Shown: positions 39,601 to 55,149 of the stretch, in pieces
Layout of the letters: every line of letters starts with the position of its first letter
Numbering within the stretch: position 1 is the stretch's first letter
Source: Bacteroidia bacterium
GTDB taxonomy: Bacteria; Bacteroidota; Bacteroidia; Bacteroidales; VadinHA17
Assembly (NCBI GenBank): GCA_026391475.1
Contig: JAPLED010000043.1
Coordinates: forward strand, 1 to 55,149
DNA: 55,149 nucleotides
Direction of reading: 5' to 3'
Notes under the pieces: model-generated
Told to the model about the DNA's origin: nothing
What the model saw: only the letters and a program-made list of their open reading frames with translations
The model's database searches: none
Position numbers and translations under genes: made by a program

Positions 39601-40329
39601 ATGATTAAAAAAGTTGTTTACTATTCAATCTTCACTCTTCTGATTTTAAGTGCTGGTTCTGATGCGACTGCACAGAATAATCAGAAATCAGCTTTAAAAT
39701 CAAAAAAAACCAAACTTGTTCCGGTTGAAAGCTTTAAGCATACAGATATTGGAAATCCAGCCATTGCAGGAACTGTAAAAGCTTCAGAAAACGGCTTGGA
39801 TATAACTGCAGGCGGTGTTGACATCTGGGGTGTTAAAGATGAATTCAATTTCGTATATATTGAGCGAACCGGGGATTTTGATCTGGTATCCCGCATCGAG
39901 AGCCTTAGCGCTCCGCATTTATATACCAAAGCCGGGTTGATGGCACGCGAAGATCTTACAGCAAGTTGCAGACATATTTATTTTCAGGTATTTTCAAACA
40001 ATAACCCAAGAAATAAGAATAACGGAGGATATGAATTTCAATATCGCCAGGAGAAAGCCGGGGAAATGAAAGCTATCTATCCTAAAAGTTCAGATGGTAT
40101 ACCTGAATTCCCTGTAACATACCCAAATACATGGATCCGGCTACAGCGTATTAAGAATGACTTTACCGGCTATTATAGCAATGATGGAAAATATTGGAAA
40201 GTATATACAACTTTTGCACTTGAACTTCCTGAAAAAATTTATCTCGGAATGGCTGTTACTTCACATAAAGCAAATGAAATTGCCAGCGCAATATTCAGAA
40301 ATATCATGTTGGGTTCGGCTCGTCAATAA
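39601..40329 (+). CDS. DUF1349-type exported beta-sandwich protein
   Basis: This 242-residue protein has a signal peptide (MIKKVVYYSIFTLLILSAGS, cut near TAQ25). Its single concanavalin-like domain fits the DUF1349 family: IYIER-like VYIERTGDFDLVSRIESL, YTKAGLMAREDL, WIRLQRIKNDFTGYYSNDGK and IYLGMAVTSHK. Such domains bind or help process sugars, and often occur as accessory parts of glycosidases. It is followed after 5 bp by the VOC gene. Confidence 0.75.
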   Translation: MIKKVVYYSIFTLLILSAGSDATAQNNQKSALKSKKTKLVPVESFKHTDIGNPAIAGTVKASENGLDITAGGVDIWGVKDEFNFVYIERTGDFDLVSRIESLSAPHLYTKAGLMAREDLTASCRHIYFQVFSNNNPRNKNNGGYEFQYRQEKAGEMKAIYPKSSDGIPEFPVTYPNTWIRLQRIKNDFTGYYSNDGKYWKVYTTFALELPEKIYLGMAVTSHKANEIASAIFRNIMLGSARQ

Positions 40330-40334
40330 AAATT

Positions 40335-40739
40335 ATGACTTTAGATCATGTTGCAATATGGACCACACGCCTCGAGCAAATGAAAGACTATTATGTCAAG
40401 TATTTTGATGGCCAGACAAATGAAAAATATACCAATAAGAAAAAGCTTTTTGAAAGTTACTTTGTGACATTTGATTCAGGAGCCAGACTGGAATTAATGA
40501 AAATGCCTGGCATTCCAGAGAACCTCAACGACCCGTTAGAGAGACAACATCAGGGGATTATCCATTTAGCATTTGGAATGGAGAGTATGGAAAAAGTATT
40601 TGAGAAATCCATAGAATTAGCAAAAGACGGATTTATAATAATTCGCGGACCCCGCAAAACCGGAGATGGATATTACGAATTTGAAACAATGGACCCGGAT
40701 AACAACAGGATCGAAGTATCAACCAGGTTTGTGAAATAG
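40335..40739 (+). CDS. VOC family (glyoxalase-like) protein
   Basis: This 134-residue cytosolic protein has one vicinal oxygen chelate domain. His5 (LDHVAIWT) and the Glu in NRIEVS near the end are probable metal ligands, with RLEQMKDYYVKYFDGQTNEK and GIIHLAFGMESMEKV between them. The family covers glyoxalases, dioxygenases and resistance proteins; the substrate cannot be told. It is translated right after the DUF1349 gene, 5 bp apart, and 39 bp before the GH97 start. Its role in the cluster is unclear. Confidence 0.8.
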   Translation: MTLDHVAIWTTRLEQMKDYYVKYFDGQTNEKYTNKKKLFESYFVTFDSGARLELMKMPGIPENLNDPLERQHQGIIHLAFGMESMEKVFEKSIELAKDGFIIIRGPRKTGDGYYEFETMDPDNNRIEVSTRFVK

Positions 40740-40778
40740 AACAAATAACATGTAAAATCCATGATAAAAAAATCAGAT

Positions 40779-42722
40779 ATGAACACAATTAAGAAATGCC
40801 TTCTGCTTTTTTTAAGCATCATCGGCGTAATATCCAATGCTCAGAATATTTCTGTTAAATCACCCGATAACAATATAGTCTTAACCATCAGCAACGACGA
40901 GAGACTGGGTTATTCAGTAACATTTCGGGGGCTGAGTATTGTTAATCCGTCTCAACTTGGTTTCGAGCTAAAGGACGAACAGGCAATGACCGGCAACTTC
41001 ACTATTGTGGATCAATCAGTTAAGAATGTAAATGAAATCTGGATCTCTGTGGTAAAATCGAAACATGCAGAAGTTATAAACCACTATAATGAACTGCAAT
41101 TATTCTTAAAGGAGAAAACAGACCCGATGCGGCAGATGGAACTTATTGTCAGAGTCTACAATGACGGTGCCGCTTTTCGTTACAAACTCTCGAGAAGCGC
41201 CAAAGTTGGTGACAGACAGATTGTTAAAGAATTAACAACATTTAATATTCCCGGTGACCCTAAAGCGTGGATCGTTGAATACAAAGGATATGCCTCATCA
41301 AATGAAGCTGAATTTTTTAAGCATCCATTGAGTTATCTGAACGAGAAATCAATAGCAGGGATGCCTATGCTTATGGAATACGGTAATAACTGCTGGGTTG
41401 CAATTACTGAAGCTAAAATTGATAATTATGCTGCTTTTTATATCGGTACAAATGGCGTTACCAATCAGCTTACAACCAAACTTGTACCTATTCCAGGGGA
41501 ACCTGAAAGTGGTGTAAAGGTTCGTTTTAATGACGAGGTTTATACCCCGTGGCGTGTCTTGATGATCGGAGAAACGCCGGGAACACTGATAGAATCTGAG
41601 ATTATCCAGAACCTCAACGATCCATGTGTAATTGAGGATCCTTCGTGGATCAAACCCGGAATGAGTGCCTGGGACCATTGGTGGAGCGGAGAAGTGAAGA
41701 TGGAGATGCCGGTCATTAAGCAGTATATTGATCTTGCTTCTGAAATGGGGTGGCCATATATGCTGGTTGACTGGCAATGGTACGGTAAGTTTAATTCGCC
41801 TGAAGCCGACATAACTAAATGGGCACCTCAGATAAATATGCCTGAAATTATCGATTATGCCCGGTCAAAAAATGTTAAAATACTTATATGGCTCTATTCA
41901 AGCGATGTTAACCGTAATGCTGCATATAAAAAGGCATTCCCCCTCTATGAAAAATGGGGAGTTGCCGGGATTAAAATTGACTTTATGGACCGAGACGATC
42001 AGCAAATGGTTAACTGGTATCACGACATTATTAAATGTGCAGCTGAAAATCATCTGCTGGTTGATTTTCACGGTGCATATAAACCTGATGGCATTATACG
42101 TACCTGGCCGAATATGATTACCCGCGAAGGGGTGATGGGCAACGAATATTACAAGTTCTCGAATAAAATGAGTCCTGAACACAATGTTAAACTGGCATTT
42201 ACACGCTTGCTGGCCGGACAGATGGACTATACTCCGGGGGGGTTCCTGAACGTTAAAAAAGAACAGTTTAAGAACCAGACTCCTGCCATTGTCTGGAATA
42301 CCCGTGCTGCTGAACTTTCGAAATTTGTTATTTATGAAAGCCCTTTGACTGTGGTTTGTGATCATCCCGATAATATACTAAACCAGCCCGGTGCTGATTT
42401 TCTGAAAATAGTACCGACAGTATGGGATGATATCAGATTTATCAGTGGTCATCCTGATACTTATGTGGCAATTGCAAAACGCAGTGGCGATAAATGGTTT
42501 GTTGGCGTAATGAACAACAGCACCGGAAAAAGTATTGAACTAAAACTCGACTTTTTACCTGCCGGCAATTATGAAGCAGAGATCTGGGCTGACACCAAAA
42601 ATTCGGATATAGATCCGAAGGAGCTGAAAAAAGTAAAACAGACAACTAAATCAGGGGATATAATTAAGGTGACAATGGCTAAAAACGGGGGTTTTGTTGC
42701 CCTGATAAAAAGAAAGTCCTGA
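40779..42722 (+). CDS. GH97 glycosidase, retaining (alpha-galactosidase-like) type
   Basis: This 647-residue exported protein has the GH97 order: N-terminal beta-sandwich (about 22-270), TIM barrel (285-560), C-terminal beta domain (565-645). The signal is MNTIKKCLLLFLSIIGVISN. The probable nucleophile is Asp401 in GIKIDFMDRDD, which places it with the retaining GH97 group rather than the inverting SusB-like alpha-glucosidases. The acid/base is one of two Glu in TREGVMGNEYY (450 or 456). The start at 40779 is favoured over 40761 because it begins the signal peptide. It likely removes alpha-linked galactose. A methyltransferase scrap begins at its stop. Confidence 0.88.
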   Translation: MNTIKKCLLLFLSIIGVISNAQNISVKSPDNNIVLTISNDERLGYSVTFRGLSIVNPSQLGFELKDEQAMTGNFTIVDQSVKNVNEIWISVVKSKHAEVINHYNELQLFLKEKTDPMRQMELIVRVYNDGAAFRYKLSRSAKVGDRQIVKELTTFNIPGDPKAWIVEYKGYASSNEAEFFKHPLSYLNEKSIAGMPMLMEYGNNCWVAITEAKIDNYAAFYIGTNGVTNQLTTKLVPIPGEPESGVKVRFNDEVYTPWRVLMIGETPGTLIESEIIQNLNDPCVIEDPSWIKPGMSAWDHWWSGEVKMEMPVIKQYIDLASEMGWPYMLVDWQWYGKFNSPEADITKWAPQINMPEIIDYARSKNVKILIWLYSSDVNRNAAYKKAFPLYEKWGVAGIKIDFMDRDDQQMVNWYHDIIKCAAENHLLVDFHGAYKPDGIIRTWPNMITREGVMGNEYYKFSNKMSPEHNVKLAFTRLLAGQMDYTPGGFLNVKKEQFKNQTPAIVWNTRAAELSKFVIYESPLTVVCDHPDNILNQPGADFLKIVPTVWDDIRFISGHPDTYVAIAKRSGDKWFVGVMNNSTGKSIELKLDFLPAGNYEAEIWADTKNSDIDPKELKKVKQTTKSGDIIKVTMAKNGGFVALIKRKS

Positions 42723-42883
42723 AATGTAATGAGAGATATTATGTGCCTTCTGAAATCACATGGCTTTTAAAATCGATTGGTTTCCGGAGGTCTGAAATAT
42801 TTGGTTGTAAACCCGGAGCTTTCAACAGAAACGACAAACTGTCAACAGAGGATTTTGAAATGTTAATTATAGCTCAGAAATGA
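42722..42883 (+). pseudogene. C-terminal remnant of a SAM-dependent methyltransferase
   Basis: Read in frame from 42722, the gap encodes RYYVPSEITWLLKSIGFRRS, EIFGCKPGAFNRNDKLST and EDFEMLIIAQK before a stop at 42881-42883. This is the closing part of class I methyltransferases (the tail with TEDFEMLVIA). There is no start codon and no SAM-binding motif, so only about 53 codons survive of a roughly 200-codon gene. Its stop overlaps the start of the next gene (AATGA at 42879-42883), suggesting that the lost gene was once translationally coupled to it. Confidence 0.7.
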
Positions 42884-43545
42884 AAATACAGGTAATTATT
42901 ACCGGAGCGACCGGAATGGTCGGTGAGGGAGTTCTTGAAGAGTCTCTTTTACATCCGGATGTGGAGAAAGTGCTTGTAATAAACAGAAAATCTTGTGGGG
43001 TTACTCATTCCAAATTAACTGAGATCCTGCATACCAATTTTTATGACCTCTCTCCTATTTCAGAACAACTTAAAGATTACAATGCATGTTTTTTCTGTCT
43101 GGGTGTTTCATCGATCGGTATGAAAGAACAGAAATATTATTCATTGACCTACACCCTTACCATGCATATGGCTGAATTACTCTCAAAACTCAATACTGAC
43201 ATGACTTTCTGCTATATATCAGGAGCGGGTACTGATAGCAGTGAAAAGGGGAAAATGAGCTGGGCCCGGGTTAAAGGAAAAACAGAAAATGACCTGATGA
43301 AACTGCCTTTTAAAAAATCTTATGCATTCCGTCCCGGGTTTATGCTGCCTTCTAAAGGAGCAGGAAATGTACATGGGTATTATGCAGTATTCAGATTGCT
43401 TTATCCTGTTTTCAGGGTTTTATTGCCAAAATATGTTTCAACACTGAAGGAACTGGGATTGGCAATGATAAATTCAGTTACAAAGGGATATGAAAAGCCT
43501 GTTCTTGAGGTGCGAGATATTGTCGAACTCGCAAAAAAGTATTGA
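42880..43545 (+). CDS. NAD(P)-binding epimerase-like protein
   Basis: This 221-residue cytosolic protein has an N-terminal Rossmann motif (VIITGATGMVGEGVLEESL) typical of short-chain/atypical dehydrogenases of the HTATIP2-like group. FFCLGVSSIGM, YISGAGTDSSEKGKMSWARV and KSYAFRPGFM follow. The canonical YxxxK is not evident; the Ser-containing SGAGTDSS region plays that part in related proteins. The substrate is unknown. It follows the methyltransferase remnant with an overlapping start. A terminator lies 24 bp downstream. Confidence 0.75.
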   Translation: MKIQVIITGATGMVGEGVLEESLLHPDVEKVLVINRKSCGVTHSKLTEILHTNFYDLSPISEQLKDYNACFFCLGVSSIGMKEQKYYSLTYTLTMHMAELLSKLNTDMTFCYISGAGTDSSEKGKMSWARVKGKTENDLMKLPFKKSYAFRPGFMLPSKGAGNVHGYYAVFRLLYPVFRVLLPKYVSTLKELGLAMINSVTKGYEKPVLEVRDIVELAKKY

Positions 43546-43568
43546 TAGAAAATGGTGGTGTAAAATTG

Positions 43569-43601
43569 CAGGGACACACCATGGCGTGCCCCTGTTTTTT
43601 T
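43569..43601 (+). terminator. intrinsic terminator
   Basis: CAGGGACACACC and GGCGTGCCCCTG form an imperfect hairpin around ATG, with two A/C mismatches, followed by seven T (43595-43601). It closes the transcript that ends with the epimerase-like gene. Confidence 0.7.
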
Positions 43602-43665
43602 CCATACAATCATTGGTTTTAAATTTAATCAGATAAATTTACTAGATCATAAAAAATTCTCTGCG

Positions 43666-45999
43666 ATGAAATTAAAACATATGTTTATTCTCGCTTTCTC
43701 AATCTGCCTGTTATCTTTTAACAGTCTGAAATCTCCCGGCCAGAACTCACCATCAGGTATGAAAATCTGGTTCAATCAGCCTGCTGATAACTGGAACGAT
43801 GCACTTCCCGTGGGTAACGGCAGATTGGGTGCAATGATATTTGGTAGTGTAGAAAAAGAACGGCTTGAATTGAATGAAGAATCTGTATGGACAGGGGAAC
43901 CACGATGGGATGCAAATCCTGATGCCCTGAAGAACCTTCCAAAAGTACGCCAACTTCTCTTTGAAGGAAAATACAAGGAGGCGGAGGCATTGGCACAGAA
44001 AAGCATTCTCGGTAACAAACCACGAACCCCGGTTGCAACCTACCAGGCTCTGGGTGACATTTACCTTGACTTTGGCCCTCAACGTGGCCTGACCAACTAT
44101 CGGCGTGAACTGGATATCGAAGAAGCAGTTGCAAGGGTATCATATACAGCAAATCAGGTAAGTTTTCTACGGGAAGTTTTTTCCAGCTTTCCTGATCAGG
44201 CAATGGTAATCAGACTTACTGCTGACAAAACCGGATCCCTTTCATTTACACTACGTCTATCACGGCAGGGAAATAAAGCACAAGTTGCAGTTTCCGGTAA
44301 TGATATCACGATGAATGAACATGTCGGAGATGGTATTGGAGTGAAAATGGAAGCGCGCCTTAAACTGATTGCTGAAGGAGGAACCGTGAATTCCGGTGGC
44401 GATAGCATCAGGGTGGAAAAAGCAAATAGTGTAACAATATTTCTCACTGCAGCGACTGATTACTTTGGTGCCGATCCCTCAATAACTGCTGCCAGACAAA
44501 TGGCTGCAGCTGTAAGCCACCAGTATGAGGAATTGAAAAAGGCTCATATTGCTGATTATCAGTCACTGTTCAAGAGGGTGGATCTGGATCTTGGATCGAG
44601 TGATGGAAATTACTTTACGACCGATGCCCGTATTGCTGCCATGCAAAATGGTTATGTAGATACTGACCTTATAGAATTATACTATCAGTTTGGCCGTTAT
44701 TTACTTATCAGCAGTTCACGTCCCGGCGACCTGCCTGCTAACCTGCAGGGAATTTGGGCTGATGGTTGGCGTCCCCCATGGAGCGCTGACTACCATATAA
44801 ATATTAACATCCAGATGAATTACTGGCCCTCAGAAATCACCAACCTCGGGGAACTTCAGGAACCCTTCATTGATTTTATTGATGCCCTGCGTCCGAATGC
44901 ACGACGGACTGCAAAGGAGGTTTATGGTATGAAGGGGATCGTTGCACATTACACTACTGACGTCTGGCATTTTACTGAGCCTACAGGAGCTATCAGGTAT
45001 GGAATGTGGCCGATGGGCATTGCCTGGAGCTGCCAGAATATCTGGGACCATTACCAGTTTGTCGGAGACGTGGAATACTTAAGGACCAAGTCATATCCGA
45101 TAATGAAGGAGGCAGCGGAATTTTGTATGGACTGGCTGGTCGTAAATCCAAAAACCGGTTACCTGGTTTCTGGCCCATCAATCTCTCCTGAAAACGCTTT
45201 TAAAATTCCCGGAGGTGGAGGAAATGCCAGTATGGTAATGGGGCCAACCATGGATCACATGATTATCCGCGACCTTTTGCAGAACACTATAAAAGCAAGC
45301 ATTGTTCTTGATACGGATAAGCCCTTCCGGAAACAAATGGAAAAAACTCTTGAAAAACTTGCTCCTACTCAGATAGGTTCAGATGGACGAATTATGGAGT
45401 GGACTGAGGAATTTGAAGAACCGGAACCAGGTCATCGTCATATCTCTCACCTATATGGACTGCATCCTGGAAATCAGATCACACAACAGCATAATGCCGA
45501 ATTTCTTGAAGCTGCCCGAAAAACTATCGATTATCGTCTTGCAAACGGTGGTGGTCATACCGGCTGGAGCCGTGCCTGGATCATCAACTTTTTTGCACGG
45601 TTAAAGGATGGTGATAAGGCTTATGAGAATGTACTTGCATTGTTAAGAAAATCCACACTTAATAATTTGTTTGACAATCATCCGCCATTCCAGATCGACG
45701 GCAACTTCGGAGGTACTGCCGGTATTACTGAAATGCTCCTCCAGAGCCATGCCGGAGAGGTTGAGTTGTTACCTGCCCTACCCTCTGCATGGAAGAAAGG
45801 TTATATTCACGGACTAATGGCACGCGGTGGCTTTGAAGTGGATATTGATTGGGAAAACGGGAAACTGAAACAGGCAAAAATTACCTCAAAACTTGGAAAT
45901 CCTTTAAAGCTGAGTTATGCCGGAAAAGTCATTGAAATAGCAAATACCGAAAAAGGGAAAGCATATCTTTTTGGCGAAGATGTTAAAAGGCTTAACTAA
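43666..45999 (+). CDS. GH95 alpha-L-fucosidase-like enzyme
   Basis: This 777-residue exported protein has the GH95 order: N-terminal beta domain (about 32-290, with [39 protein letters not shown]), an (alpha/alpha)6 barrel (300-690) and a C-terminal beta domain. Active-site stretches are [23 protein letters not shown] (candidate catalytic Glu) and [20 protein letters not shown] (Asp). Known GH95 enzymes remove alpha-1,2-fucose or alpha-L-galactose by inversion. It stands alone after a terminator. The signal peptide is [20 protein letters not shown]. Confidence 0.9.
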
Positions 46000-46086
46000 A
46001 TAATTGAGCAATGAACAAAGTCTTCAGGAGACGAAATAATTTATTCTCTGTCTATAAGAAATTTAATATTAACTGAGAAAAATAAT

Positions 46087-47568
46087 ATGACCGGGAAAAA
46101 ATCGGCAGTGATCATCGGCGCAGGAATAGGAGGTATTGCAACAGCAATTTATCTGGCGAAAAATGGATATAATGTTAACGTATATGAAAAAAACCCGGTA
46201 CCCGGGGGCCGTTGCGGTCAGCTGATACGCGACGGACATCGTTTCGACCTTGGCGCTACCATGCTCATGATGCCGGGCATTTATCGCGAGGTATTTCAGT
46301 CACTTGGAATTCCTCTCTTCGAAAATAATGATATAAAACAACTGGAAGACCTCTATAAAATATATTTTGACAATAATGAAGTTATTGCTTTTTCTCCGGA
46401 TAAAAATAAAATGAAAATCCAGCTTGAAAAAATCGAACCGGGAAGTTTTGAAAAATCACAAAAATATGTTTCAGCCGGGTATGAGATTTTTCAATTAGGT
46501 ATTAATAAGCTGATCGGACGCAATTTCGATAATCTCTTTCAGTTTGCCAACTTTAAAAATGTAGGCATGCTGATAAAACTCAAGACATATATTTCCAATT
46601 ACAGATATGTAAAAAAATTCTTCCGGTATCCCCATTTAAGGATGGCTTATACTTTTCAGAATATCTACGTCGGGCAGAGTCCTTTTAATTCCCCGGCTCT
46701 CTTCTCTATGGTTCCGGCTGCCGAACTGACCGAAGGTTCATTCTTCCCTATTGGAGGGATGTTCAATCTCGTTGAGAGATTATTGTCTGAGGCTAAGTCA
46801 TCAGGAGTTCAGTTCCATTATAATAAGCCAGTTAAAAATATCAGAGTGAAGGGGAAAAAGGCTGAAAGTGTTGTTCTTGACGACGGGTCTGAAATAAGGG
46901 CAGATATTATCGTTGCAAACGCAGATCTTCCGTATGTCTATCGCAAATTACTTCCTGACAGAGGAAAGTCGAAAAGGCTTGACAGGATGAAATATTCATG
47001 TTCTGCAATCTGCTACCACTGGGGCCTCGACAAGGTCTATCCTCAACTCGGGCACCATAGTGTTTTCCTCTCCGATGGATTCCGGGAGGGCCTCGACCGC
47101 ATTTTCAAAGACAAATCTGTCAGCGATCATCCAAGTTTTTATGTGCATGCTCCTGCCAGGACAGATCCCTCGGCTGCCCCACAAAATCAGGATACACTTT
47201 CAGTTATTGTAGGTGCCGGACATATAGATAAGAATAAAAAACAGGACTGGGATGATATGAAGAAAAAAACACGGACTGCTGTTATTCAGAGGCTTAAACA
47301 GCTGGGACTGAAAGATCTTGATGAGCACATTAAATTTGAAATCTGCTACACACCTGAAAACTGGGAGAGTGCTTGTAATATCTCCAGGGGCTCTGTGTTC
47401 GGGAGTCTGGCTCATAACATTTTTCAGATGGGCTATTTCCGTCCTCACAATAATCATAGTCGCTACAAAAACCTTTTCTTTGTAGGTGGCAGTACTCACC
47501 CCGGTAACGGAATACCAAATGTTTTGTTATCAGCTAAGCTTACAACTGAACGGATCCTGAATAAATAA
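46087..47568 (+). CDS. crtI: phytoene desaturase (CrtI family)
   Basis: This 493-residue flavoprotein starts with a dinucleotide-binding motif (IIGAGIGGIATAIYLAKNGY, then VYEKNPVPGGRCG). It ends with the carotenoid desaturase signature FFVGGSTHPGNGIPNVLLSA. It desaturates phytoene, or a C30 analogue, towards coloured carotenes at the membrane. The next gene, 18 bp downstream, is the matching phytoene synthase-like gene, so the two form a short carotenoid operon. Cyclase or hydroxylase genes are not seen nearby. Confidence 0.9.
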   Translation: MTGKKSAVIIGAGIGGIATAIYLAKNGYNVNVYEKNPVPGGRCGQLIRDGHRFDLGATMLMMPGIYREVFQSLGIPLFENNDIKQLEDLYKIYFDNNEVIAFSPDKNKMKIQLEKIEPGSFEKSQKYVSAGYEIFQLGINKLIGRNFDNLFQFANFKNVGMLIKLKTYISNYRYVKKFFRYPHLRMAYTFQNIYVGQSPFNSPALFSMVPAAELTEGSFFPIGGMFNLVERLLSEAKSSGVQFHYNKPVKNIRVKGKKAESVVLDDGSEIRADIIVANADLPYVYRKLLPDRGKSKRLDRMKYSCSAICYHWGLDKVYPQLGHHSVFLSDGFREGLDRIFKDKSVSDHPSFYVHAPARTDPSAAPQNQDTLSVIVGAGHIDKNKKQDWDDMKKKTRTAVIQRLKQLGLKDLDEHIKFEICYTPENWESACNISRGSVFGSLAHNIFQMGYFRPHNNHSRYKNLFFVGGSTHPGNGIPNVLLSAKLTTERILNK

Positions 47569-47586
47569 AATAACTGACAGAAATTA

Positions 47587-48522
47587 ATGAATTCACAAAG
47601 GGATAAGTTTTTAGAGATATTCAATTCGATTGATTTTCATCAGATTATAAATCATCCGAATATACTTATTGCTGCCAATTTCTGGGATGCGGAGAGATAC
47701 TGTGCTGCAAAAATATGTTATAAATTCATGCGGGCTATCGATGATCTGATCGATAACCACAAAGCAAAAAACAAACTGATTGCTGCTGATGAAAGGGAGG
47801 AATTCGTAGCCAATGTTGATGATTGGCTTAGAATGATCATTATTTCAAAAAAGTGTAATCCACTTCAGGGAGAACTGATTGAAATCATTGAAAAATTCAG
47901 AATCCCTTTGTGGCCGATGGAAGCCTTTGCAAAATCGATGATCTACGATATTAACAACGACGGATTCCCTACACTGAATGCCTTTCTTGAGTATGCACAA
48001 GGAGCATCAGTTGCTCCTGCTGCAATCTTTGTCCATTTAAACGGACTAAAAAAAGAAAGCGGCATTTATGAAAATCCTCCATTTGATGTAAAATGGGCCG
48101 CAACACCATGTGCTGTCTTCAGTTACCTGGTACACATTATTCGCGATTTCCAGAAAGATCAGCTAAACAATCTAAGCTATTTCGCTGATGATCTGATTAT
48201 TAAAAACGGCCTGAGCAAAAATGATCTGCGTGAATTCGCTGAAGAGAAACCGGTTGACAGTAAATTCCGCAACCTTATAAAACAATATTATTTACTGGCC
48301 GATGAATACCGCCTGAAGACTTATGATGTAATAAAAGAAATCAGACCTTTACTGGAACCCAGGTACCAGTTAAGTCTCGAAATCATATTCGGTCTCTACC
48401 TTATGGTGTTTGAGAGGATCGATGTCCGGAAGGGAAGATTCACAACTGAAGAGCTTAATCCAACACCGGAAGAGACAAAAGAAAGGGTATATAAAACTAT
48501 AATGAATTTCGAAATCAGTTAA
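47587..48522 (+). CDS. squalene/phytoene synthase family protein
   Basis: This 311-residue helical protein has the two Asp-rich motifs of head-to-head prenyl synthases: DDLID (residues 52-56) and RDFQKD (186-191). YKFMRAIDDLID and AYAQGA-like EYAQGASVAPAAIF fit the family. It joins two prenyl diphosphates into phytoene or a related C30 chain. Next to crtI it is best read as phytoene synthase. The family also includes squalene and hopanoid synthases, so the chain length is not fixed by sequence alone. Confidence 0.8.
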   Translation: MNSQRDKFLEIFNSIDFHQIINHPNILIAANFWDAERYCAAKICYKFMRAIDDLIDNHKAKNKLIAADEREEFVANVDDWLRMIIISKKCNPLQGELIEIIEKFRIPLWPMEAFAKSMIYDINNDGFPTLNAFLEYAQGASVAPAAIFVHLNGLKKESGIYENPPFDVKWAATPCAVFSYLVHIIRDFQKDQLNNLSYFADDLIIKNGLSKNDLREFAEEKPVDSKFRNLIKQYYLLADEYRLKTYDVIKEIRPLLEPRYQLSLEIIFGLYLMVFERIDVRKGRFTTEELNPTPEETKERVYKTIMNFEIS

Positions 48523-48552
48523 TACATATTTACCACTATCCCAAGGGGATAT

Positions 48553-48640
48553 CTAAAAAGCTGGATTAACCACCCCGTCATGACCCTGCGGGCATGACAC
48601 CCCTGACCGAAGCGTCAGGGGGAGGTGGCGGGCTTTTTAG
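48553..48640. repeat. branched inverted-repeat element
   Basis: Four nested pairings give a three-way junction. The outer stem is CTAAAAAGC (48553-48561) with GCTTTTTAG (48632-48640), then CCACC (48570-48574) with GGTGG (48624-48628). Inside are two perfect hairpins: GTCATG (48577-48582) with CATGAC (48593-48598) around CCCTGCGGG, and CCCCTGAC (48600-48607) with GTCAGGGG (48614-48621). It lies between the carotenoid pair and the GH28-like gene, and could act as a bidirectional terminator or be a small palindromic mobile repeat. Confidence 0.7.
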
Positions 48641-48670
48641 AAACCTCCAGAAATTAAAAATTATATTATA

Positions 48671-50383
48671 ATGAAAAAACTCCTCCTTTCCTTTCTTCTC
48701 TTTTTACCATTTACATGTTTTGCCGCTGAGAAAGATAATGTCTTCCTCTTTTCCTATTTCAAAGGAAACGGAGAGGATGGCCTGCATCTGGCATTTAGCA
48801 TGGATGGTGTAAGACATGGAACCGTTTTTCAGGTCAGCGGGAAAATTCTTTCTGGATTACAGAACATTGTCACTGTTCCTGATCAGCAACAGGTCAAATC
48901 CATTTCAAAGATATCCGGCACTTTTTTCAATGTTAAAGATTTCGGAGCAAAAGGCGACAGTTCAGCTTTCGATACTGATGCAATTAACAAAGCAATCGAT
49001 GCTGCTGCAACTGAGGGAGGCGGTACAATCTATTTCCCGGCCGGGGAATATTTAAGTTTCTCAATCCGCTTGAAAAGCAATATCACACTTTTTCTTGATA
49101 ATGGTGCAGTATTGATTGCTGCTGATCCAAATCAGGGAAAAGGCGGATATGACGCTCCGGAACCCAACGAATGGGACAAATTCCAGGACTTTGGCCATAG
49201 CCACTGGCATAACAGCCTCATCTGGGGAGAGAATCTACAGAACATTTCCATTATAGGTCACGGACTGATTGATGGAAAAGGGCTCACCCGGTCAGGCAAT
49301 ACAAAAGAGGGAATTGCGAATAAAGCCATTGCCCTGAAACTGTGTCGAAATGTTATTCTGAAAGATTTCTCAATACTGACAGGCGGACATTTTTGCCTTT
49401 TAGCCACAGGAGTTGATAACCTCACAATTGATAATTTAAAATCAGATACCAACCGCGATGGTTTCGATATTGATTGCTGCCGCTACGTTCACATATCAAA
49501 TTGCAGCGTGAATTCCCCGTTTGATGATGCAATTGTATTAAAAAGTTCCTATGCTCTGGGCTTTGCACAACTGACAGAGGATGTGACAATAACCAATTGT
49601 TCTGTAAGTGGTTTTGATATAGGGACTTTCCTGAATGGAACCTATAAACGTGAAAATGCTGGAAGGGTTCCTGACAGAGGTGTCGTTACCGGAAGGATTA
49701 AATTCGGTACAGAATCTAACGGAGGATTCAGGAATATTGTAATTTCCAACTGTACATTTGAATTCTGCCGTGGTCTTGCACTTGAAACGGTAGATGGTGG
49801 AATACTGGAAGACATATCAATCTCGAACATCACCATGCGCGATGTTATGGGTGCTCCTTTCTTCATGCGGTTAGGTTCCCGTATGAGAGGTCCTGCCGGA
49901 ACACCTGTTGGTAAACTCAGAAGAATTAACATAAGTAATGTTGTTGCATATGGTGCAAATCCCGATTTTGCATCTCTTCTCCTCGGAATACCCGGATATG
50001 ATATTGAGGATGTTAAAATGGATAATATTACCATTCTTGTGAAAGGAGGGGCACCGAAAGAGCAGGCTGCTCTTATTGTACCGGAAAAGGAAAATGCTTA
50101 TCCCGACCCACAGGAATTCGGTAAAATTCCTGCTTATGGTTTTTTTATCCGTCATGCGAAAAATATTACCATGACAAATGTCGAATTGAAGCTTGAGAAT
50201 GAAGATTCAAGACCGCCTTTCATTCTTGAAGATGTTAAGGGAGCAACATTTATAAATGTCAGGGTTCCTCATGGCGATGGGGTTCCTTCTTTTGTCCTTA
50301 AAAATGTTTCAGATTTCAGGACAATAAATTGCGGTAATTTGGCTGATAAAAAAATTGATAAAGCTGGTGATGTGAAATTCTAA
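48671..50383 (+). CDS. GH28-like pectin glycosidase with GH43-like N-terminal scrap
   Basis: This 570-residue exported protein has a signal peptide (1-19). A short segment follows (about 22-50: FLFSYFKGNGEDGLHLAFSM, then DG) that looks like the first blade of a GH43-type propeller. The GH28-like beta-helix runs from about 85 to 560 (FNVKDFGAKGDSSAFDTDAI). Active-site features are NRDGFDID (Asp263), FDDAIVLKSS (Asp285, Asp286) and GRIKFGTESNG (Arg342, Lys344). The GHG motif of true polygalacturonases is absent, which fits the rhamnogalacturonidase-like branch. The propeller scrap is too short to be catalytic. Confidence is good for the fold, moderate for the substrate. Confidence 0.8.
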   Translation: MKKLLLSFLLFLPFTCFAAEKDNVFLFSYFKGNGEDGLHLAFSMDGVRHGTVFQVSGKILSGLQNIVTVPDQQQVKSISKISGTFFNVKDFGAKGDSSAFDTDAINKAIDAAATEGGGTIYFPAGEYLSFSIRLKSNITLFLDNGAVLIAADPNQGKGGYDAPEPNEWDKFQDFGHSHWHNSLIWGENLQNISIIGHGLIDGKGLTRSGNTKEGIANKAIALKLCRNVILKDFSILTGGHFCLLATGVDNLTIDNLKSDTNRDGFDIDCCRYVHISNCSVNSPFDDAIVLKSSYALGFAQLTEDVTITNCSVSGFDIGTFLNGTYKRENAGRVPDRGVVTGRIKFGTESNGGFRNIVISNCTFEFCRGLALETVDGGILEDISISNITMRDVMGAPFFMRLGSRMRGPAGTPVGKLRRINISNVVAYGANPDFASLLLGIPGYDIEDVKMDNITILVKGGAPKEQAALIVPEKENAYPDPQEFGKIPAYGFFIRHAKNITMTNVELKLENEDSRPPFILEDVKGATFINVRVPHGDGVPSFVLKNVSDFRTINCGNLADKKIDKAGDVKF

Positions 50384-50677
50384 ATAGGGTCAATATTGAT
50401 TGCAGCTGCCGTTGCTGAAGGGATTAAATCATTAAAAGGGAGTAAACTGAAAAAATACCTTTTAAAATAAAAAGACCTAATTGCATACCGGACAGATTCG
50501 ATTCCGGACCAGACAGATTCAATTCCAGACTTGGAAGATCCTTCCCGGCAACCGTAAGAGGGCATTGCATGGGTGGCAGACCTTAAAATTGGCTTTCGCC
50601 CAACATAGAAAAGTATTCATTCATTATACGACACGTTGAATTACTAAACAAGAGTATTTAATACGGAAAACGGTTTG

Positions 50678-50685
50678 TAACTTTG
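50678..50685 (+). promoter_or_regulatory. possible -7 element of the heme-copper operon
   Basis: TAACTTTG matches TAnnTTTG. No TTTG lies 19 bp upstream, so an activator or an alternative sigma factor may be needed. The leader to the start codon would be about 60 bp. Confidence 0.4.
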
Positions 50686-50743
50686 GTAGATTAGATTTAC
50701 AACGAGTAACCAAATAAAATTAACTAAACCAGCATTTACAAAA

Positions 50744-50751
50744 AAGGAGGT
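50744..50751 (+). promoter_or_regulatory. strong Shine-Dalgarno site
   Basis: AAGGAGGT lies 3 bp before the ATG at 50755. It is a perfect match to the anti-Shine-Dalgarno sequence, which is rare in this window and in Bacteroidota in general. It fixes the start of the subunit II-like gene. Confidence 0.7.
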
Positions 50752-50754
50752 ATT

Positions 50755-51321
50755 ATGGTAGATTCAACCGTGGTTATTAACGGACAAACACTGGCTTACA
50801 CGTTTTACTGTATCGTTCTTATCTTGCTTATGGCATGGTTTGCCTATAAGGTTACAAAAGGTGGTAGCGGTACATTTGTTAAGCCTGCAATATTCTACAC
50901 TTTTGTCGGATTTCTGACAGTTCTGGGAGTATCATTACACATTATAACCTATAATACAATTCCCTGGGCTGAGATGGATCTCAACAGAGCTAACTACACC
51001 CCCGACAAAACCTTTGTCATCACAGTGCAGGATCACAAGTTTACCTTGCCATCAAACAAAATGATTATCGATCTGAACGACAAGGTTTTATTTGATGTAA
51101 AATCAAACGATCTTACTTATGGTTTTGGGTTATTCCGCAGCGACAATACGATGATGTTCCAGATGCAGGTTGTTCCTGGTCATCGGAACGACATCCTTTG
51201 GCATTTTACAAAACCTGGGGTTTACACCATCCGGTCAACTGAGTACTCTGGTCCCAAAGGAGTATTTATGATTGAAAAGGATGTTGTTGAAGTTGTTGAC
51301 CCTCGCGGAATCATCAAATAA
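50755..51321 (+). CDS. CuA-less subunit II-like cupredoxin of a heme-copper enzyme
   Basis: This 188-residue protein has two membrane helices (about 13-31 and 45-66), then a periplasmic cupredoxin domain like cytochrome oxidase subunit II. The CuA site, normally CxxxCxxxHxxM with an earlier His, reads STEYSGPKGVFM: Ser161 and Ser165 replace the cysteines, Gly169 the His, Met172 remains. The earlier His is Tyr122 (SNDLTYGF). It therefore cannot carry CuA and probably serves as a structural or quinol-facing subunit. The next gene, 33 bp on, is the catalytic subunit. Confidence 0.8.
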   Translation: MVDSTVVINGQTLAYTFYCIVLILLMAWFAYKVTKGGSGTFVKPAIFYTFVGFLTVLGVSLHIITYNTIPWAEMDLNRANYTPDKTFVITVQDHKFTLPSNKMIIDLNDKVLFDVKSNDLTYGFGLFRSDNTMMFQMQVVPGHRNDILWHFTKPGVYTIRSTEYSGPKGVFMIEKDVVEVVDPRGIIK

Positions 51322-51354
51322 TTAACCAATTGTCAAACGAAAAAATAACCCGAT

Positions 51355-52971
51355 ATGAGCTTTATAAAAACTTTAATGAACGGTGAAGAAGGGCTATTCA
51401 AAGGCGATACTCTTACACCTATGCAAAAAATGGCACTACGCTTTGTTGTTGTCGGTCTGGTTTACTACGGTTTTGTTGTGATTGAGGGTATGTTGATGAG
51501 GGTTTATGAGGTAACTCCTGTTTCATTCATAAGTCAGTCTCAATTTTTTGCAATCATGACCGCCCACCCTTTAGTAGGAATATTTGGTTCAACATACTCT
51601 ATTGTATTTGGTGCATTCCTTTTTCTTGTCCCTTTCCTTATGAAAAAACCGCTTTGGAGCATTAAGATGGCTAATTGGAATTTTGTTCTGGTTACGGGTG
51701 GTACTTTCATATTCTGGTTTGCAGGATTTGTTTCACATTATGCACCACTTTATACTCTATACTGGCCACTTCCTGCTGATTTTAATCAATTCAGCGTTTG
51801 GGGAGGAACATTTTTTATCGTTGGCATTGCACTGGTAATGGTTGGAACAATGCTATTCATTATTAATATCTTTAAAACAATAACATATACTCCCGAAGGT
51901 TGGGAAAAACAACCCGCAGGAGCACTTCTTGGATCTGCTTTAGGCATAAGTGGATTCAAAAATCTTTTCAGGAAGAATAAAAAAGAGCATTTGGTTTCGT
52001 TACCCGTCGCTGCAATTGCCCGTGGTACAGTTGATATGGCATTTAACACGGGTATCATACTTTTTACAGGTGTACTTATTCTTATTTACATGGTTGGGTC
52101 TATACTTGGTTTCGACTTAAAAACAACCGCTATTGATGCTTTGCTTTATAAAAACTGGTTTTGGTGGGGTCTCGACCTGATTGCAGATGGACTTGTGCTG
52201 ATATTCGTTGCAGGTACCTGGTACTTGTTGGCAACCCTGATTACTGGTAAGAAATTGTTTATGCAGAATATTGCTCGTGCGGCATTACTCGTTGAACTGG
52301 TTGTATCCTGGACGGTTTGGTCGCACCACCTACTCTCAGATCAGTCTCAACCTGGTATGTTGAAGGTTTTATCAGGGGAGATGGTTACAGCATTTGAATT
52401 GATTACTCAGGGTTTGGCATTTTTTATCACCCTGGCAACACTATGGAGCGCAAGGCCATTGAAAATGACCAATCCGCTGAAATTTTTACTTGGAGGTTTG
52501 TTAGGTTTTGCACTGGCAGTTCCTGCCGGAATTATGCAAGCTGATGTTGGGTTAAACAGGATTTTACATAATACCCAATGGGTAATTGGGCCACACGTTC
52601 ACGTTGCAATTCTTGTTGGTCTTACCATGACTCTTTATTCTGCTATATACTTTTTATTCCCTATTTTAACCAATGGTGCAAAAATGTATAGCCAGAAATT
52701 GGTTAACATTCATTTCTGGTGTCATCTTATTGGCGGAATCGGAATGGGAGCTTTTATGGGAATGGCTGGATTAAATGGTATGTTAAGAAGATCACTTTAT
52801 GTTAATGGTGAATTCAATACTTACATGATTCTTGCTGCTCTTGCAGGTACACTGCTCTTAATTGGATTCCTTGTATTCTTTTATAATATCGTTATGAGCG
52901 TCGGGGTTAAGGGGGTTATCGATATCTTTTTACCTGCAAAGGTTAAAGGGAAAAATCTGTTGCCTGAATAG
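51355..52971 (+). CDS. heme-copper oxidase superfamily catalytic subunit, NO-reductase-like
   Basis: This 538-residue membrane protein has about 12-14 helices. The low-spin heme ligands are His71 (TAHPLVG) and one of His414/His416 (GPHVHVA), the other being the high-spin heme ligand. The metal-site pair is His324-His325 (WSHHLL). The first metal-site His, in NorB within WWVVHLWVEG, is replaced: here the motif is WWGLDLIADG, with Asp274 at the His and Asp278 at the NorB Glu. There is no Tyr for the oxidase cross-link. This fits a nitric oxide reductase-like branch (a gNOR-type Asp-for-His change has been described) rather than an oxygen reductase. The assignment is from motifs only. Confidence 0.8.
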   Translation: MSFIKTLMNGEEGLFKGDTLTPMQKMALRFVVVGLVYYGFVVIEGMLMRVYEVTPVSFISQSQFFAIMTAHPLVGIFGSTYSIVFGAFLFLVPFLMKKPLWSIKMANWNFVLVTGGTFIFWFAGFVSHYAPLYTLYWPLPADFNQFSVWGGTFFIVGIALVMVGTMLFIINIFKTITYTPEGWEKQPAGALLGSALGISGFKNLFRKNKKEHLVSLPVAAIARGTVDMAFNTGIILFTGVLILIYMVGSILGFDLKTTAIDALLYKNWFWWGLDLIADGLVLIFVAGTWYLLATLITGKKLFMQNIARAALLVELVVSWTVWSHHLLSDQSQPGMLKVLSGEMVTAFELITQGLAFFITLATLWSARPLKMTNPLKFLLGGLLGFALAVPAGIMQADVGLNRILHNTQWVIGPHVHVAILVGLTMTLYSAIYFLFPILTNGAKMYSQKLVNIHFWCHLIGGIGMGAFMGMAGLNGMLRRSLYVNGEFNTYMILAALAGTLLLIGFLVFFYNIVMSVGVKGVIDIFLPAKVKGKNLLPE

Positions 52972-53109
52972 AATAAAAAAAGTTGTAAACCATATTTGCC
53001 ACTACCTCCTGGCCTTCACACGAGCCAAGGGTAGCAAAAAAATCCATAAAAGAAACATAGTATCACAAAGTAATTCAATCGGTAATCATATATTAAATTA
53101 AAGAATAAA

Positions 53110-53991
53110 ATGAAGCCAAAAAACCTGATCTCAATAATCTTATTAATTCAATTATCAGGAGCAATGTCTGCCCAGAAACAGGATCAGTTTTCACCTGATT
53201 TCAGTTCTCCCGGAAAAGTTTTGGGAATGACACTTGTCTGGAATGATGAATTTAACAATAACGGAAAACCTGATCCTGCCAGCTGGATCTATGAAAAAGG
53301 ATTTGTAAGAAATCAGGAACTGCAATGGTATCAACAGGAAAATGCTAATTGTGCAAATGGCTTACTGATTATAGAAGGAAGAAGAGAACAAATTAATAAT
53401 CCAAATTATATTTCAGGAAGTACCAACTGGAAAACAGTTCGGGAATATGCTGAATATACCTCAGCCAGCATTCAGACCCACGGTCTTAGGCAATGGCAGT
53501 TCGGACGGTTCGAGATACGGGCAAGGATTGATACAGCCTGGGGTTCCTGGCCTGCAATATGGACCCTCGGTATTTCCGGAGGCTGGCCATCAGGAGGAGA
53601 AATTGATATTATGGAGTTTTATCGCGTTAAAGGTGTCCCTACTATCCTGGCTAATTTTGCCTGGGGAACAAGCCAGCGCAGTGTAGCAAAATGGGACGGC
53701 CTTAAAAAACCTCTTTCTGATTTTACCGTAAACGATCCGGCCTGGACCAAAAAATTCCATGTCTGGAGAATGGACTGGAACAAGGATTCCATCAGTCTGT
53801 TCCTTGATGATCAGTTACTGAATACAACTTTGCTAAGTGAGACAATCAATCCTGATGGTTTCAACCCATTCCTTCAACCACATTATATTCTTTTAAACCT
53901 TGCTATTGGAGCTAATGGCGGAGATCCGTCAAAAACCAGATTCCCGATGAAATATGAAGTTGACTATGTGAGAGTTTATCAAAACCAATGA
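53110..53991 (+). CDS. GH16 glycosidase (laminarinase/agarase clan)
   Basis: This 293-residue exported protein has a signal peptide (1-21) and a single GH16 jelly roll. The catalytic signature is GEIDIMEF (Glu164, Asp166, Glu169). FGRFEIRARIDTAWGSWPAIWTL and the C-terminal YEVDYVRVYQ are standard. GH16 enzymes cut internal beta-1,3 or beta-1,4 links of laminarin, agar, porphyran or similar glucans and galactans by retention. The EIDIME form without an insertion is the laminarinase-type spacing. It is a single gene, convergent with the TPR gene. Confidence 0.9.
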   Translation: MKPKNLISIILLIQLSGAMSAQKQDQFSPDFSSPGKVLGMTLVWNDEFNNNGKPDPASWIYEKGFVRNQELQWYQQENANCANGLLIIEGRREQINNPNYISGSTNWKTVREYAEYTSASIQTHGLRQWQFGRFEIRARIDTAWGSWPAIWTLGISGGWPSGGEIDIMEFYRVKGVPTILANFAWGTSQRSVAKWDGLKKPLSDFTVNDPAWTKKFHVWRMDWNKDSISLFLDDQLLNTTLLSETINPDGFNPFLQPHYILLNLAIGANGGDPSKTRFPMKYEVDYVRVYQNQ

Positions 53992-54021
53992 TTTTCAGGT
54001 TCGTGAAATGAAGCATGTATT

Positions 54022-55149
54022 TTATAATTGAGCCTCAAAAACGATTCCTTTTACTGCATTTGCCATATCGGGGTTGAGTTTTAAAAGGTAGTTCTCATCT
54101 TTGCCATTTTCAATATAACTAATACAATGCTGAACGGCTTCTATAATAACATCTCCTTCATTATCAAACATCCCGGTTGCTTCTGCACAGATATCTCTTA
54201 ACAGATCGAAAGAAAGTTCCATGTTAAGTAACCCGGCAAAAAAGTTTGAGAGAGCCTTGTTTCTGTTTAATTTCCAGTCTTTTGTTTTTAAGGCACTTAA
54301 TATCTCATTAGCCATCTTAAAAGCAGGCGCTTTTCCTTCCCATTTTTCTATATAGACCACAGAATCACCAAACTCTTTAAATATTAGTTCCTTTGGAATG
54401 TCAGAATATTTTTCATCTTCAAATAATTCCCAAGCATGATCAGGGCTATTTAACAAATGATTGACTCCTATTTGCCCAAGATTCCAGGCTTGTTCTGAAA
54501 TATCCCCTTCCTGTTTCCTCAATTCATATGCCTTTTGATGATATTCTGTCGATTTTCCAAATTCCTTAAGTTCTTTATAATTCCATCCAATTAGCCCAAG
54601 ATTCCAGGCTTGTCCAGAAATGTCACCTTCCTGTTTCTTTAATTCATATGACCTTTGATAAAATTCTATTGCATTTCCATATTCCTTTAGTTCTTTATAA
54701 TTCCATCCAATTTGCTCAAGATTCCAGGCTTGTACTGAAATATCACCTTCCTGTTTCCTTAATTCATATGCCTTTTGATGATATTCTGTCGATTTTCCAA
54801 ATTCCTTAAGTTCTTTATAATTCCATCCAATTAGCCCAAGATTCCAGGCTTGTCTTGAAATATCTTCTTCCTGTTTCCTTAATTCATATGCCTTTTGATG
54901 ATATTCTATTGCATTTCCATATTCCTTGAGTTCTTTATAATTCCATCCAATTTGCCCAAGATTCCAGGCTTGTTCTGATATATCCCCTTCCTGTTTCCTC
55001 AATTCATATGCCTTTTGATGATATTCTGTCGATTTTCCAAATTCCTTAAGTTCTTTATAATTCCATCCAATTAGCCCAAGATTCCAGGCTTGTTCTGAAA
55101 TATCCCCTTCCTGCTTCCTTAATTCATATGCCCTTTGATGATATTCTAT
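54022..55149 (-). CDS. tetratricopeptide-repeat protein, 5' end outside window
   Basis: The minus-strand frame is open from the right edge to the stop at 54022, so the start lies outside the window. It has at least five 40-residue TPR repeats of the form AWNLGxIGWNYKELKEYGNA, then IEYHQKAYELRKQEGDIS, followed by a roughly 190-residue non-repeated C-terminal domain (about from WELFEDEKYSD) that I do not recognise. TPR arrays bind protein partners. The 120-bp units are almost identical in DNA. An internal TTG at 55002 is not a real start. Confidence 0.85.
   Translation of the reverse strand: MEYHQRAYELRKQEGDISEQAWNLGLIGWNYKELKEFGKSTEYHQKAYELRKQEGDISEQAWNLGQIGWNYKELKEYGNAIEYHQKAYELRKQEEDISRQAWNLGLIGWNYKELKEFGKSTEYHQKAYELRKQEGDISVQAWNLEQIGWNYKELKEYGNAIEFYQRSYELKKQEGDISGQAWNLGLIGWNYKELKEFGKSTEYHQKAYELRKQEGDISEQAWNLGQIGVNHLLNSPDHAWELFEDEKYSDIPKELIFKEFGDSVVYIEKWEGKAPAFKMANEILSALKTKDWKLNRNKALSNFFAGLLNMELSFDLLRDICAEATGMFDNEGDVIIEAVQHCISYIENGKDENYLLKLNPDMANAVKGIVFEAQL
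54471..55149. repeat. 120-bp tandem repeats in a 240-bp higher-order array
   Basis: ATTCCAGGCT recurs at 54481, 54601, 54721, 54841, 54961 and 55081, an exact 120-bp period. Alternate units share variants: TTAGCCCAAG against TTTGCCCAAG (once TTTGCTCAAG), and CGATTTTCCAAATTCC against GCATTTCCATATTCC. The alternation is strict over the visible units, so the true repeat is 240 bp (80 residues). The array continues beyond the window. Confidence 0.85.

Follow-up and report, generated by a model that had tools for sequence, protein, structure and literature searches.

The gNOR type of nitric oxide (NO) reductase (NOR) is a proposal reportedly associated with Hemp and Gennis in 2008, Sievert et al. 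in 2008, and Murali et al. in 2024. In the accessible parts of the papers cited here, gNOR is described as having an Asp as its active-site residue and a second subunit predicted to be a cupredoxin, with examples from Sulfurimonas, Sulfurovum, and Persephonella (PMC8756737), and as a quinone-oxidizing, non-electrogenic enzyme with the genes norGH (PMC8906906), while another paper predicts, contrary to the non-electrogenic label, that it conserves energy (PMC6349771). Methylomirabilis has one gNOR (PMC6094997), and gNOR is listed among the NORs that are proposed rather than characterized (PMC11388526). The portion seen of PMC3475470, referring to Hemp and Gennis 2008 and Sievert 2008, states that Asp replaces one of the metal-binding His residues in "certain NOR types," which in our reading means gNOR. 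Thus, gNOR, its active-site Asp, and the Asp-for-His change are already in print (PMC8756737, PMC3475470), and for this reason the change is less surprising than the original prediction for the locus described here made it. In the literature as far as it was accessible, we found no description of gNOR in Bacteroidales, and a survey of gNOR across many genomes (PMC12569097) may hold Bacteroidota cases.

We analyzed a stretch of 55,149 bases (the window), which is an entire contig of a 2.8-Mb genome of 97.9% completeness from an uncultured Bacteroidales-type bacterium. The window contains a pair of genes that very probably encodes a gNOR-type quinol:NO reductase, whose most likely role is the removal of toxic NO (Table 1). 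The genes for subunit II and subunit I form one unit with 33 bases between them, and their G+C contents (0.41 and 0.39) are similar to that of the window (0.39). Glycosidase genes adjoin the pair, as had been stated, with a GH28-like gene upstream and a GH16 gene downstream. Elsewhere in the window, positions 46087-48522 hold an FAD amine-oxidase-family gene (CrtI-like by reading) that adjoins a squalene/phytoene synthase gene (PF00494), possibly representing a carotenoid or squalene pathway, and positions 54022-55149 of the - strand encode a TPR protein with closely similar repeats that is truncated at the contig end.

Table 1. Features of the gNOR-like gene pair and their positions in the window
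Feature	Position	Strand	Details
Subunit I, gNOR-like catalytic subunit, heme-copper superfamily	51355..52971	+	538 aa, ATG start, Pfam profile match to COX1 PF00115 at 1.7e-55
Subunit II, gNOR-like, two membrane helices and cupredoxin domain without CuA ligands	50755..51321	+	188 aa
Altered metal-site motif, codons 274-278, Asp-Leu-Ile-Ala-Asp	52174..52188	+	Translation and sequence
DNA-level stretch in common with the nearest relatives, L033 and L034	50708..52978	+	blastn
Residue places in subunit I			Helix II, His71; helix VI, Asp274 and Asp278; helix VII, His324-His325; helix VIII, Glu348; helix X, His414 and His416

The original prediction was that subunit I is a heme-copper catalytic subunit in which Asp replaces both the first metal-site His and the FeB Glu, with the remaining ligands retained. 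The open reading frame has the motif FWWGLDLIADG, with Asp274, Asp278, His71, His324-His325, His414, and His416 at the positions claimed. We aligned 23 sequences with MAFFT L-INS-i: 9 gNOR-like, 8 labeled A-type, 2 cbb3, and 4 qNOR, where the A-type label was given by motif and tree and L156 alone was compared with the PDB. Both replacements are borne out in this alignment, since Asp274 aligns with a helix VI His that is found in 14/14 rows of the other families and Asp278 lies in the column of the qNOR Glu, and the five His residues fall on the other invariant His residues of the superfamily. Helix VI (residues 268-297 in the model) contains no alternative His able to fill the site. Four residues after the ligand place, there is a Tyr in 8/8 A-type rows (matched to Asp278 by spacing, beside a one-column alignment gap), a Glu in the qNOR rows, and an Asp in the gNOR-like family, and Ser318 of the gNOR-like family aligns with the helix VII Tyr of cbb3. 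We take the A-type helix VI Tyr and the cbb3 helix VII Tyr to be the catalytic tyrosines.

A further acid, not part of the original prediction, is Glu348 in the sequence TAFELI of helix VIII. It aligns with the qNOR Glu of SALEVV, a match that rests on the alignment because the Glu follows His325 by 23 residues in the gNOR-like family and the corresponding His by 21 in the others, a difference of two. None of the oxygen reductase rows (8 A-type, 2 cbb3) has an acid in this column, where they carry Ile, Val, or Leu. In the part seen of a qNOR structure paper, Glu490, Glu494, and Glu559 are near FeB, and the ligands are His486, His537, and His538 (PMC13087809). Asp278 corresponds to Glu490 and Glu348 to Glu559, and the place of the middle Glu is occupied by Leu282. 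The three qNOR residues are presumably NorB Glu211, Glu215, and Glu280.

One alternative is that the enzyme is a divergent oxygen reductase that reduces O2 at low O2 concentrations, with the Asp ligating copper. The superfamily fold would suit such an enzyme, and a PDB sequence search with subunit I gave 5 matches (best 5e-8), all of them cytochrome-c oxidases and the named ones cbb3. The best PDB fold matches of the AlphaFold2 model (mean pLDDT 78.5) are heme-copper oxidase subunits I of the A-type at 14-22% identity; around the active site, the model has pLDDT values below 50 at residues 322-328 and 397-410 and is too weak there for ligand geometry. However, an oxygen reductase should have a Tyr at one of the two known catalytic places, which are occupied by D278 and S318, and Glu348 is common to qNOR and missing in the oxidases compared. 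On these residues, on the absence of a catalytic Tyr, and on the separate group formed in the tree described below, we rejected an oxygen reductase as very unlikely.

To find relatives, we scanned genome contigs with tblastn (E 1e-3), and this gave 325 stretches encoding relatives, of which the best 80, at 78-92% identity, were studied; all of the relatives seen in several samples are 70-92% identical to the window protein. In 80/80 of these best relatives, Asp274, Asp278, Glu348, Ser318, Leu282, and the five superfamily His residues are invariant, which rules out a chance sequence or a decayed gene, and on this point the original prediction was correct. The dN/dS ratio is ~0.04 against the two nearest relatives (0.048/1.286 and 0.068/1.694), with dS obtainable for 2 of the 5 relatives tried. 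The pair reads as a well conserved example of the known, uncharacterized gNOR kind.

Of the 325 stretches, the best 80 come mainly from records with Bacteroidales or another Bacteroidota lineage in the title. Seven records are of Ignavibacteria type, and one each is labeled Acidobacteriota, Spirochaetes, Neomarinimicrobiota, and Patescibacteria; metagenome bins make up most of the set, and odd taxon labels may therefore be wrong. In a sample of the same phylum, 11 of 395 genomes match at E 1e-60 (own genome included, one copy split over two contigs). In a sample of close relatives, the gNOR-like enzyme is present in 16 of 60 genomes, own included, after two of 18 matches (G027 and G045) were dropped because they are aa3 and cbb3 by sequence. 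COX1 frames of qNOR length (666-781 aa) occur in 6 of these 16 genomes versus 13 of the 44 others, with the qNOR motif seen in 5 such loci, and the counts show neither a clear exclusion nor a clear association of the two enzymes. NrfA is strongly matched in 2 of the 16 genomes (G042 and G059) versus 14 of the 44. Genome G020 has two gNOR-like copies on different contigs, C12 and C26. No relative was found in the viral contigs scanned, and a plasmid search gave 56 records of distant oxidases, none of which covers 80% of the query, with the top row at 26.8% identity.

When window positions 40001-55149 were compared with the two nearest relatives by blastn (E 1e-5), positions 50722-52978 matched L033 (83.1% over 2257 columns) and positions 50708-52970 matched L034 (80.4% over 2272 columns), with no further match of their available flanks to the window. 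Because the DNA shared with these relatives consists of only the pair and 33-47 bases upstream, the pair acts like a cassette. The subunit II gene lies directly before the subunit I gene in 79/80 loci, and in the other (L067) the contig ends there.

Subunit II matches the TIGR02866 CoxB model at 3.3e-7, far under the model's cut-off. Its structural model (pLDDT 87.2) has two membrane helices and a beta-barrel domain, and its Foldseek matches, which are subunit II of oxidases, CuA domains, and N2O reductase, reach TM-scores of just ~0.4 when the full chain is counted. We aligned it with three COX2 sequences, two with all of the CuA ligands and one from Nostoc without them; a further row, the first gene of L156, proved not to be a subunit II and is excluded from the count. 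The CuA ligands are replaced in subunit II, one His by Tyr122, the two Cys by Ser161 and Ser165, and the other His by Gly169, while Met172 is retained, and Tyr122, Ser161, Ser165, and Gly169 are invariant in a 31-sequence subunit II alignment. Judged by these ligand positions, the 31 subunits II lack CuA, as in quinol oxidases. Since subunit II has kept the fold and lost the ligands, we presume that the electron donor is quinol rather than cytochrome c via CuA, and the loss is what would be expected for a quinol-fed enzyme.

The genes beside the pair in some relatives would fit a link to NO. Subunit II is preceded by more than 700 bases in 75 loci; an Rrf2 gene is directly upstream of the pair in 47 of these and absent in 28. 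A representative of the upstream Rrf2 proteins matches PF02082 at 3.9e-31, and 47/48 proteins of the Rrf2 cluster have three Cys residues in a C-x6-C-x5-C arrangement or one close to it. Within the Rrf2 family, Cys residues of this kind occur in the NO sensor NsrR as well as in IscR, and by analogy the adjacent regulator may respond to NO. No shared operator was seen when words were counted over the 75 upstream stretches and palindromes were listed for 13 of them. Upstream of the pair in the window, we found no Rrf2 gene or remnant and only a single weak match at 42561-42698; the sole Rrf2 gene found in this genome is on another contig and may be unrelated to the upstream Rrf2 cluster.

Genes for a qNOR (PF22085 and PF00115), a hemerythrin, a RIC/YtfE-type ScdA_N-hemerythrin protein, and a second Rrf2 regulator face the pair in genomes G009 and G020. 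These NO-stress islands (L147, G009:C112:1-12000; L148, G020:C12:1-14000) also encode a DUF438-hemerythrin-PAS protein, and in L147 the pair has its own Rrf2 gene, the second Rrf2 gene being a different one. Near the pair over the 80 loci (where L039 is the G009 place), there are qNOR genes at 2, hemerythrin genes at 4, and RIC genes at 2, and NO-stress neighbors other than Rrf2 occur at 6/80 loci, of which one was recognized through a DUF1858 match below the cut-off; these counts are lower bounds since many loci are short. The window's own copy has no adjoining Rrf2, qNOR, hemerythrin, or RIC gene. In four Ignavibacteria-type loci (L084, L086, L088, and L103), a membrane protein of 152-154 aa is encoded 76-94 bases upstream of subunit II, in the place of Rrf2, and a like protein is encoded elsewhere in locus L101. 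This protein has weak COX1 similarity (PF00115 at 1.3e-7 in L103, under the cut-off) and is thus a small heme-copper-like protein beside the gNOR-like pair.

The NO-related neighbors at some loci are a further argument against an oxygen reductase, but a regulator and repair genes would fit any NO-linked role. The enzyme could then be an NO dismutase, or it could sense or scavenge NO without turnover to N2O, and its active site is indeed unlike that of qNOR. We consider this highly improbable, as all of the heme ligands are kept, the published prediction for gNOR is NO reduction, and nothing in our data points to dismutation. The known NO dismutase candidates are qNOR-like, which also counts against a dismutase.

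Subunit I is the only COX1-family, or heme-copper, enzyme found in its genome. The genome also has cytochrome bd, so an enzyme for O2 is already present, again in disagreement with an oxygen reductase. No match to Hcp, NosZ, or NirK was found in the 97.9% complete genome. There are two partial matches to the NirS family (PF02239), one protein with three CxxCH motifs and the other with none; both pass the cut-off as whole proteins, both fit lactonase-type propellers better, and neither appears to be a convincing NirS. The protein with three CxxCH motifs (G000:C11:1-1772, L160) is distantly like the NirS cytochrome D1 domain and closer to lactonase propellers. The one partial match to the NrfA family is a multiheme protein of 439 residues with a better fit to cytochrome c7. 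The gene for this c-type protein (G000:C30:31000-38000, L149) adjoins a CRP/FNR-like regulator gene and a 131-aa cytochrome c-like gene (by reading), and the same contig carries cytochrome bd. Because no clear NO-forming nitrite reductase was found among NirK, NirS, and NrfA in this genome, of which ~2% may be missing, we favor the removal of outside NO over the cell's own denitrification.

In a 36-row tree, all 21 gNOR-like rows fall into a single group (97/97) and the A-type, qNOR, and cbb3 rows likewise group, so that the gNOR-like rows stand apart from all three and are not placed among the oxygen reductases. Because the tree covers only these four sets of rows and long branches meet between the groups, it shows separateness only and not the nearest family. 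The residues can also be compared with the published families. Subunit I belongs to PF00115 and has the heme ligands His71, His414, and His416 in 80/80 relatives, one metal-site His is replaced by D274, the second subunit has a cupredoxin fold, and D278 is in the place of the oxidase Tyr or NorB Glu, where Asp is the gNOR residue in the part seen of Table A4 of PMC8756737. The same table gives Asn, Gln, and Asn at the Tyr place for sNOR, eNOR, and bNOR, and here D278 is present in 80/80. D274 and D278 likewise depart from the three His and Glu at FeB of qNOR and cNOR, and the enzyme has neither the helix VI or VII Tyr nor the three metal-site His residues of the A or C oxygen reductases.

The original prediction had pointed to the gNOR branch, and this is supported by the separateness in the tree, the invariant Glu348, the CuA-less cupredoxin partner, the Rrf2 gene at 47/75 loci, and the NO-stress neighbors at a few loci. 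The assignment to the gNOR type was made by comparison with the published descriptions of gNOR, and the enzyme shows each of the described features that can be read from sequence. It could be argued that the enzyme and its relatives, seen here at 70-92% identity to the window protein, make up an NO reductase family of their own, in which Asp replaced His separately from the gNOR of Sulfurimonas and Methylomirabilis. We regard this as unlikely because the enzyme agrees with gNOR in having an Asp where Tyr or Glu stands in other families, in its cupredoxin subunit, and in the Asp-for-His change that has been reported.

For a gNOR-type enzyme, we propose that, by homology, the low-spin heme would be bound via His71 and His416 and the high-spin heme via His414. 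The second metal, probably iron, would be held by His324, His325, and Asp274, and Asp278 and Glu348 would be close to it as a further ligand or as proton relays. Two NO molecules would meet between the high-spin heme and the second metal and be joined to form N2O, with electrons coming from membrane quinol. The cell would most likely be removing NO made by its neighbors, not carrying out a denitrification step of its own.

A broader proposal, which we make tentatively and for which the chances are somewhat short of even, is that the pair is a laterally moving, widespread two-gene gNOR cassette, often with its own Rrf2 repressor, that serves as the only NO reductase of anaerobic Bacteroidota and Ignavibacteria cells making no NO and that carries out N-N coupling at two His residues and up to three carboxylates. 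If so, the third metal-site His would be dispensable for N-N coupling, and there would be an extra source of N2O, one that searches for norB may overlook. The gNOR metal site breaks the three-histidine rule and thus tests what NO coupling needs. Because Pfam identifies subunit I only as COX1 and the NCBIfam models match it far under their cut-offs, the N2O-forming capacity of such Bacteroidota may be undercounted. Beyond the original prediction, we add Glu348, the CuA-less partner, the upstream Rrf2 gene in relatives, and the position of subunit I as the sole heme-copper enzyme found in its genome, and the gNOR-like cluster now offers three handles: the conserved acid Glu348, the CuA-less partner, and the adjacent Rrf2 regulator in many relatives.

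Compared with known systems, the window enzyme is most readily described beside published gNOR, which, in the accessible text, also has two subunits, the second of them a cupredoxin, an active-site Asp, and, as printed for certain NOR types, an Asp in place of a metal-site His, and which is described as quinone-oxidizing, as presumed for the window enzyme (PMC8756737, PMC3475470, PMC8906906, PMC6094997); unlike the published gNOR hosts, its relatives are mostly in Bacteroidota and Ignavibacteria records. It resembles qNOR (NorZ) in that Asp278 and Glu348 align with qNOR Glu residues and quinol is the presumed donor, whereas qNOR, in which the helix VI His is retained and an additional Glu stands at the place of Leu282, consists of a single fused chain of ~750 residues that includes a NorB cytochrome-c-like domain, rather than being the product of two genes. 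With the A-type and cbb3 oxygen reductases it shares the fold and five of six His residues, but those enzymes retain the helix VI His, carry a Tyr in either helix VI or helix VII, and lack an acid at the place of Glu348.
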